This document shows positions 27,103 through 29,009 of a stretch of DNA of 30,755 bases, piece by piece (the first letter of the stretch is position 1; every line of letters starts with the position of its first letter). Source of the stretch: a virus; IMG/VR virus record IMGVR_UViG_3300032607_000575, positions 1 through 30,755 of that record. One strand, written 5' to 3'. The notes beneath the pieces were generated by a model. That model saw only the letters and a program-made list of their open reading frames with translations, made no database searches and had not been told where the DNA came from. The position numbers and the translations under genes were made by a program.

Positions 27103-27130
27103 TGGCCGGCAGAAATGTTGGCCTTTATTA
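27103..27130 (+). terminator. Hairpin after SSB gene
   Basis: GGCCGGCA (27104-27111) and TGTTGGCC (27116-27123) form an 8-pair stem with two G-U pairs and a GAAA loop, followed by TTTATTATTT. It makes the ATG at 27102 an unlikely start and favours ATG 27138 for the next gene. Confidence 0.75.
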
Positions 27131-27716: not shown

Positions 27717-27898
27717 TATTTAATTTTAATTTTAATCCATTAGTCAAGATTTTGTTAGTGATTACATTCATAGCTGTTTTTTTAAAGCTAACAGGTGTAT
27801 TTAATTATTCATGGTTTGAAGCCATGATCCCTACCTTTGTTTTGGTAGGATGTGAATTCTATATTTTTGTATTAGTATTTTTTTTCCTAAAAAAATGA
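27713..27898 (+). CDS. Small two-helix membrane protein
   Basis: The 61-residue protein has two hydrophobic helices (VKILLVITFIAVFLKLTGVF, then IPTFVLVGCEFYIFVLVFFFL) joined by YSWFEAM. LKLTGV followed by a Trp-bearing turn recalls small phage proteins annotated as transmembrane Fragile-X-F-like. That match is from memory and weak. The gene is coupled to both neighbours by 4-base overlaps. Confidence 0.65.
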   Translation: MIFNFNFNPLVKILLVITFIAVFLKLTGVFNYSWFEAMIPTFVLVGCEFYIFVLVFFFLKK

Positions 27899-28164
27899 AA
27901 ACATTTCAGCAGTACCATCAAGATCATCCAGAGATCTATGAAGTTTATAAAAACATTGCCTATGAATATATCCAGAGGGGCAAAATTAAAATGGGCAGCA
28001 AATCCATTATTGAGGAAATCCGGTGGCATAAGTTGGTAAAAACCAATGAATACTTTAAGGTCAGCAATAATTACACAGCTTATTACGCAAGAAAATTTGT
28101 TAATGAGCATCCACATTATGCAGGCATTTTTAACTTTAAGCCATTGCGATCATCGAATAAATAG
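27895..28164 (+). CDS. Conserved-looking phage protein (89 aa)
   Basis: This protein carries a pattern I have seen in many phage hypothetical proteins: P-E-I-Y near the start, a helix (YKNIAYEYIQRGKIKMG), then IIEEIRWH, EYFKVSNNYTAYYARKF and HPHYAGIF. The role of this group is unknown. It is the last gene before the structured leader RNA at about 28179, and the promoter -7 box begins right after its stop. Confidence 0.75.
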   Translation: MKTFQQYHQDHPEIYEVYKNIAYEYIQRGKIKMGSKSIIEEIRWHKLVKTNEYFKVSNNYTAYYARKFVNEHPHYAGIFNFKPLRSSNK

Positions 28165-28172
28165 TATATTTG
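28144..28172 (+). promoter_or_regulatory. Promoter with near-ideal spacing
   Basis: TTG (28144-28146), an 18-base spacer and TATATTTG (28165-28172) fit the Bacteroidota -33/-7 consensus. The predicted start is near 28179, at the left edge of a structured segment. Confidence 0.7.
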
Positions 28173-28178
28173 CAAAAT

Positions 28179-28271
28179 TAGCGATCTCACAACATAGCTA
28201 CAAACGGTCTTAAAGGCCATCATTATTGAACCCAAGGTGAGATCTGGGGGATTTAATTGATGGTCTTTTTT
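28179..28271 (+). ncRNA. Structured leader or small RNA
   Basis: The segment can form GATCTCAC (28183-28190) with GTGAGATC (28237-28244), an 8-base perfect pairing. AAAGGCCATCA (28212-28222) can pair with TGATGGTCTTT (28258-28268), which leads into a six-T tract. The two pairings interleave, so they make a pseudoknot or compete as terminator and anti-terminator. A small GGTC/GGCC hairpin (28206-28218) is a third option. It could be a stand-alone RNA of about 90 bases or an attenuator for the next gene. Confidence 0.6.
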
Positions 28272-28274
28272 ATT

Positions 28275-29009
28275 ATGAAGAAAATAAGAATTAAAAACAG
28301 GTATGGAACGGTTCCAAATGCGCTATTAAACAGCGATCAAATATCGTTTAAAGCCAAGGGAATCTATGCTTATATTCAATCAAAACCGGATGATTGGGAT
28401 TTTTCTGTGGAACGAATTTCAAGCCAAGTAAAGGAAGGAAAACCAAGCATTGCAGCTGCACTAAAAGAGTTAGAAAATGCAGGTTATTTGACACGAATCC
28501 GGTACCAAGCAGAGTTTGGATATTGGGTATCAGAGTATGTATTGCATGAATTTCCTATAAAGGAATCCCTACATACAGGAATTCCTATGAAGGAAAATCC
28601 TATAGCAGGAAAACCATCAAATATTAGTAAGAAAGATTTAAGTAATAAAGAGTATATATATAATAATATAAGTAAGAAAGATAAGGACATTAATCAAATT
28701 TTATCTAATAGAGATCTGATTTTTGAAAAATGGTTTGACTATAAAAGAGAAAAAAAACAATCTTATAAACCCATTGGAAAGCAGGCATTAATTAAGCAAT
28801 GGGAATGGGCCACAGATGATCAAATTGATCAAGCCATTGATTATTCAATATCAAATAATTGGAACGGAATTTTTGCAAAAAAAGAAGAAATTAGTAATAT
28901 TAAAGGCAAGCATCAAACCAATTTAGAAAACATAGAATTAGCAAAACAACAAATCCTTAAACAACATGAAAACGGAACTTATAAAAATCCATTTGCCATC
29001 GGTGATTAA
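28275..29009 (+). CDS. Winged-helix replication protein (replisome organizer-like)
   Basis: The ATG at 28275 is chosen because the in-frame ATG at 28257 lies inside the terminator-like stem. The 244-residue protein has an N-terminal winged helix (about 1-90): VPNALLNSDQISFKAKGIYAYIQSKPDDWDFSVERISS, then SIAAALKELENAGYLTRIRY. A Lys/Asn linker leads to a C-terminal helical domain (LIFEKWFDYKREKKQSYKPIGKQALIKQWEW...NNWNGIF). This architecture is seen in phage replication initiators of the DnaD/replisome-organizer kind. The family assignment is approximate. Confidence 0.75.
   Translation: MKKIRIKNRYGTVPNALLNSDQISFKAKGIYAYIQSKPDDWDFSVERISSQVKEGKPSIAAALKELENAGYLTRIRYQAEFGYWVSEYVLHEFPIKESLHTGIPMKENPIAGKPSNISKKDLSNKEYIYNNISKKDKDINQILSNRDLIFEKWFDYKREKKQSYKPIGKQALIKQWEWATDDQIDQAIDYSISNNWNGIFAKKEEISNIKGKHQTNLENIELAKQQILKQHENGTYKNPFAIGD

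Follow-up and report, generated by a model that had tools for sequence, protein, structure and literature searches.

The DNA analysed here, a 30,755-base virus record referred to as the window, carries genes for a terminase, a major head protein, an Erf-like annealing protein and a winged-helix replication initiator, and between the stop codon of the phrog_13625 gene and the initiator ATG (28275) it encodes what comparative sequence evidence decisively identifies as a real, structured RNA. The RNA consists of two hairpins, H1 and H2, the second ending in a U tract, and the loops of the two hairpins match each other by strict Watson-Crick pairing across relatives (the kiss; Table 1). We propose that this self-complementary leader RNA regulates the passage of transcription into the replication-initiator operon, with presumed termination at H2, tuning by the kiss and possibly feedback in trans, and we consider the chances of this proposal to be even. 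A preliminary description, made from the letters of the window, had placed a promoter-driven structured RNA with interleaved pairings and a terminator-like end before a replication gene; the promoter, the fold and the relatives agree with that placement, and the sequence elements lie within 1-2 nt of where they had been reported.

Table 1. Positions of the leader RNA, its parts and the adjoining genes in the window
Feature	Position	Strand	Details	Basis
Upstream gene, family phrog_13625 (unknown function)	27895-28164	+		constant left neighbour of swapped cassette
-33-like TTG	28144-28146	+	18 nt 5′ of -7 box	sequence
-7 box TATATTTG	28165-28172	+	Bacteroidota sigma-A promoter, consensus TAnnTTTG	sequence
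Predicted RNA, start site to U-tract end	28177-28271	+	~95 nt	promoter geometry, U tract
Hairpin H1	28179-28200	+	TAGC 28179-28182, 14-nt loop, GCTA 28197-28200	fold, covariation
H1 loop segment, kiss 5′ partner	28183-28190	+	GATCTCAC	covariation
H1-H2 linker	28201-28211	+	11 nt	sequence; rough geometry
Hairpin H2, terminator-like	28212-28268	+		fold, covariation
H2 basal stem	28212-28222 with 28258-28268	+	AAAGGCCATCA with TGATGGTCTTT	fold, covariation
H2 apical (inner) stem	28231-28234 with 28245-28248	+	CCCA/TGGG	fold, covariation
Inner H2 loop segment, kiss 3′ partner	28237-28244	+	GTGAGATC	covariation
U6 tract of putative intrinsic terminator	28266-28271	+	T6 in DNA	sequence; U tract retained in relatives
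Winged-helix replication initiator gene	28275-29009	+	HTH_36; phrog_428/4221 replication initiation protein	

The -7 box of the window is also the commonest form among relatives. As the flavobacterial sigma-A -7 box, TAnnTTTG, occupies -12 to -5 (PMC9723704), transcription would start at about 28177 and yield an RNA of ~95 nt; the promoter of the preliminary description thus stands, with its start site moved from about 28179. A covariance model built from relatives (R1) spans 28176-28269 in the window. H2 and U6 have the make-up of an intrinsic terminator, a G+C-containing stem followed by a U tract. The simple terminator scanner, which has a loop limit of 8 nt, reported only a small hairpin at 28206-28218 there and not H2, and promoters of this Bacteroidota type are outside the range of the sigma-70 promoter scan. 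A further terminator-like hairpin, GGCCGGCAGAAATGTTGGCC with T-rich DNA after it, is found at a gene boundary at 27104-27123.

Folding of the window sequence predicted both H1 and H2, and the nested fold was moderately unusual (z -2.1). An 8-nt loop match as seen occurred in ~3% of shuffles (p ~0.03). The GATCTCAC 8-mer was present in the 30.7-kb window at the two kiss sites only, with 0.33 occurrences expected, and the lack of any other copy argues for mutual pairing rather than for a separate target in this phage. A single sequence leaves the loop match only mildly surprising, and the window is insufficient as proof. The two pairings had been described as competing, a choice between terminator and anti-terminator being one of the outcomes considered. 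They are indeed interleaved; they are not plain alternatives, since GATCTCAC/GTGAGATC joins two loops and both stems can coexist with it. The interleaved pairing is a contact between loops and no classical anti-terminator stem. The window has only one alternative hairpin, GGTCTTAAAGGCC (28206-28218); as it is missing from relatives, a conserved anti-terminator stem was rejected.

Searches with the initiator and the upstream gene returned ~240 loci, many of them sharing contigs. The RNA was almost unchanged in near-identical phages, and more distant phages kept the same layout in other letters. Two classes, A (that of the window) and B, were parsed with the register set by the stems only and not by the kiss, which makes the loop match an independent check; the basal H2 arm of class A was registered afterwards. 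Covariation in homologs, on which the preliminary description had let its reading depend, proved strong. Among 18 distinct class A scaffolds, 99.5% of the cells of 24 pairs were paired, with changes on both sides in 18 of the 24, and in slid controls the paired fraction dropped to 31-48%. The 8-bp kiss helix was paired completely (100%) in 18/18 sequences while taking seven different forms, with no one-sided change, no G-U pair and 6 of 8 pairs changed on both sides; its covariation score was 0.534, against 0.158 for shuffled and at most 0.095 for slid alignments. The loop pairs are GATCTCAC/GTGAGATC, GTTCTCAC/GTGAGAAC, CTTCTCAC/GTGAGAAG, CTCCTTAC/GTAAGGAG, CTCTCGAC/GTCGAGAG, CTCACTAC/GTAGTGAG and TCTCTCAC/GTGAGAGA. 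All five H1 stem pairs likewise showed both-side changes in relatives, the stems including GATAC/GTATC, ATCGC/GCGAT, GGCAC/GTGCC and GGTGT/ACACC.

Class B (18 scaffolds) has unrelated-looking sequence and the layout of class A; its H1 is in two parts, the loop GGGTnnnAGT has 10 nt, and the kiss uses all 8 nt of the H2 loop. Five kiss cores were found (GTGAGAG, GTAGGAG, GTCGGAG, GTCAGAG and GTGGTAG); pairing was 98% overall and 95% in the kiss, in which 4 of 8 pairs were double-changed. In the class A and B alignments one of the two kiss strands always starts with GU and its partner ends with AC; class A has the purine-rich kiss strand in H2, class B in H1. A match of at least 7 nt between loop and upstream sequence was found in 68 of 71 distinct terminator-bearing regions; the figure for control terminators was 10 of 59, and the top ones of these are further elements of the same layout.

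Inverted repeats next to an initiator gene could also be protein-binding sites or an origin structure of the initiator, acting as DNA, and the class A kiss helix and H1 stem, free of G-U pairs, would suit such a role. A U-G pair is, however, retained in H2 in 15 of the 18 class A sequences, which fits a + strand RNA only. Together with the promoter and U tract on that same strand it points to RNA and not DNA structure, and the RNA stays in place while the initiator family changes (see below); we regard a DNA feature as highly improbable.

The layout recurs in further sequence families. Both kiss segments lie wholly or mostly within predicted hairpin loops in classes A, B, C and E and in L363, and mostly so in class D; in L104/L105 the segments AUGCGG and CCGCAU are each exactly the 6-nt loop. 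A hairpin-loop/terminator-loop arrangement with a 9-nt match, the kiss mostly in loops, was also seen one gene ahead of another replication initiator in L351 (1655-1780) and L357 (1690-1815). Two tandem RNAs in L367 (77-225 and 849-985) follow sigma-70-like promoters and precede a phage regulator gene and an unassigned short gene. In each of them two segments are complementary to the terminator's loop region. When relatives of this pair were sought, only L367 itself was returned; the pair may extend the architecture to phages outside Bacteroidota. Upstream of the initiator gene in L349, L350 and L353, interleaved complementarity reaches into a terminator hairpin with the partners not both in loops, and these elements may be relatives or different attenuators.

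The position of the RNA was compared in 88 class A and B loci, collected using known loop sequences. An ATG follows the end of the U tract after 3-19 nt (median 10; 3 nt in the window), which leaves no room for another promoter, so the initiator mRNA must read through H2. Such proximity would also suit control of translation, in which the kiss opens or closes the ribosome landing zone as in the IncI-alpha repZ pseudoknot, a precedent of this kind (PMC8383071): H2 ends ~8-25 nt before the start codon, within that zone. This reading is nevertheless unlikely, as the U tract right after H2, which translation control does not need, is kept in classes A, B and others.

Four types of gene follow the RNA, namely winged-helix (HTH_36, phrog_428), Lin1244-type (phrog_2562) and phrog_270 initiators and a phrog_6251 replisome organizer. 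Where a methyltransferase, an HNH endonuclease or an unknown gene came first, an initiator was next at 10/10 loci checked; in the cases checked the initiator thus lay directly 3′ of the RNA or one gene later. Phages were also compared in pairs whose upstream DNA is mostly 95-100% identical (78-95% for the most distant of them): the two sequences become unrelated at the 5′ end of the RNA, with RNA and initiator changing together. In one such pair, the window and L022, both of class A, the RNAs themselves are still ~72% alike. As RNA and initiator are swapped together and the initiator family varies, the RNA belongs to the replication module and not to one family, and by this sequence comparison it marks the replication-initiator operon generally. 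The preliminary description had linked the RNA to the winged-helix replication gene; its location before that gene holds, and a specific tie does not, at least four initiator families following the RNA. Because other families replace the winged-helix initiator, the idea of a regulator dedicated to that protein was rejected. The element is missing in front of some homologous initiator genes of distant phages. Distant homologs of the neighbouring genes also occur in cultured Polaribacter, Bacteroides and Alistipes phages, where the annotated genes overlap or are so closely spaced that the RNA would not fit between them. In the relatives (L022-L060, L208-L287) as in the window, the gene to the left of the swapped replication cassette is always one of the small-protein family phrog_13625, and distant homologs of this family occur in Mycobacterium, Acinetobacter and cyanophage genomes.

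An attenuator and a free small RNA, both raised in the preliminary description, are each possible from the sequence. A free small RNA would act through its own stable fold, as a kissing complex or dimer, for example by binding a host protein, and its location would reflect operon order only. The compact promoter-to-terminator unit, the strong U tracts and the drift of the kiss sequences with pairing kept, as expected of a purely structural contact, are what such an RNA would look like. It is harder to reconcile with an initiator mRNA that has to cross the hairpin, with the joint exchange of RNA and operon, and with a downstream region that stays a replication-initiator operon although the initiator family changes, and we think it rather unlikely.

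In the leader attenuator that we prefer, H2 would be an intrinsic terminator and the loop-loop contact would set how frequently it terminates. In cis the kiss probably competes with closing of the H2 base, which would favour read-through, because the class A linker looks too short for a fully closed H1-kiss-H2 stack: in the window the stack needs ~98 angstroms and the linker spans at most ~72 (a rough estimate for an 8-bp kiss with the hairpins end to end). In other closed class A and D cases the linker covers 0.56-0.80 of the needed span, and the longer linker of class B could reach. The terminated short RNA would carry both loops and, by analogy, could pair in trans with new leaders as phage genome copies rise, occupying a loop. 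In a leader paired in this way the terminator would be released and the initiator turned down, giving a copy-dependent negative feedback with its specificity in the loop sequence.

Class A and B phages carry one RNA copy per contig. Covariance models found no copy in 395 Bacteroidota genomes: class A gave no matches, and the class B matches that were read resemble ordinary terminators. Matches of the class A consensus in bacterial genomes were random, and a DNA search of GenBank phages gave chance matches only. A tyrosine integrase (PF00589) was absent from 20 related records, some of them possibly incomplete, and the control was positive in 14/14 genomes. The phages are probably lytic, and their host is apparently a member of the Bacteroidota, judging only from the promoter type and the absence of Shine-Dalgarno sequences. 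These results bear on a trans-acting immunity or incompatibility RNA, whose loop type would decide which co-infecting phages silence each other's initiator, much like P4 CI. At least seven class A and five class B loop sequences, some differing between phages with near-identical upstream DNA, are in keeping with this, and P4 offers the precedent of a leader-encoded RNA that stops a replication operon (PMC4825925). Without an integrase or genome copies prophage immunity is unlikely, however, which leaves co-infection alone, and the loop diversity is in keeping with compensatory drift as well; such an RNA seems improbable.

We further put forward, as a tentative suggestion, that the leader attenuator represents an undescribed phage leader architecture with at least six sequence-unrelated forms, in which a 5′ loop kisses the loop of a pre-initiator terminator and many natural loop specificities make up a one-strand sensor of copy number or co-infection in lytic phages. 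Control of replication initiators by kissing hairpins is classical for plasmids; in a widespread group of uncultured phages, the regulator and its target appear to share a single strand of ~95 nt, and the contact seems to have branched into many sequences that exclude one another. Should the RNA function as proposed, it would reveal how early replication is metered in phages that lack lysogeny; it would also offer same-strand attenuators that are naturally orthogonal to each other, and could serve as a marker when replication operons are sought in uncultured phages.

In line with the earlier suggestion of an undescribed riboregulator, Rfam 15 (including Flavo-1, Bacteroidales-1 and c4) gave no match at the gathering score across the whole window, only chance matches around the element (E 0.4-7.8) and none at E ≤ 1 in nine related loci. 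No description of this RNA was found in the literature searched, a partial, open-licence set that does not prove novelty. As proposed, the RNA would work like P4 CI RNA and plasmid rep leaders, and it fits the full definition of none of them. P4 CI RNA is encoded in the leader of a replication operon, is complementary to parts of its own leader and brings about premature transcription termination (PMC4825925). The present RNA shares with this satellite phage immunity leader (seqA/seqB/seqC) the location in the leader of a replication operon and the complementarity to its own leader, here within one short RNA instead of separate flanking sites. P4 CI, processed from the leader, is active in lysogens, and the two sites it pairs with lie outside its own sequence; here a single short RNA supplies both loops, the second of them in an intrinsic-terminator-like hairpin, and the 20 related records gave no integrase. 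The c4 antisense RNA (RF01695), recorded from Proteobacteria and phages (Weinberg et al., PMC2864571), and the IsrK/anrP leader likewise combine a phage leader, internal complementarity and control of a downstream phage gene, the last being predicted here; they differ in architecture, and the present RNA has no Rfam match.

Among plasmids, long-range pairing in the IncI-alpha/IncB repZ leader controls expression of the initiator mRNA (PMC8383071). The repZ pseudoknot works at the level of translation, and an antisense RNA counters it. No U-tract terminator hairpin is known as the second partner in the repZ leader. The rep mRNAs of pT181 and pIP501 are controlled by terminator formation, in pT181 via hairpin kissing (PMC8383071, PMC3753616). 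There an antisense transcript of the opposite strand serves as the partner, whereas both partners here lie on one strand, so that complementarity must be kept by double changes; the mutual loop match would make a counter-transcript unnecessary.
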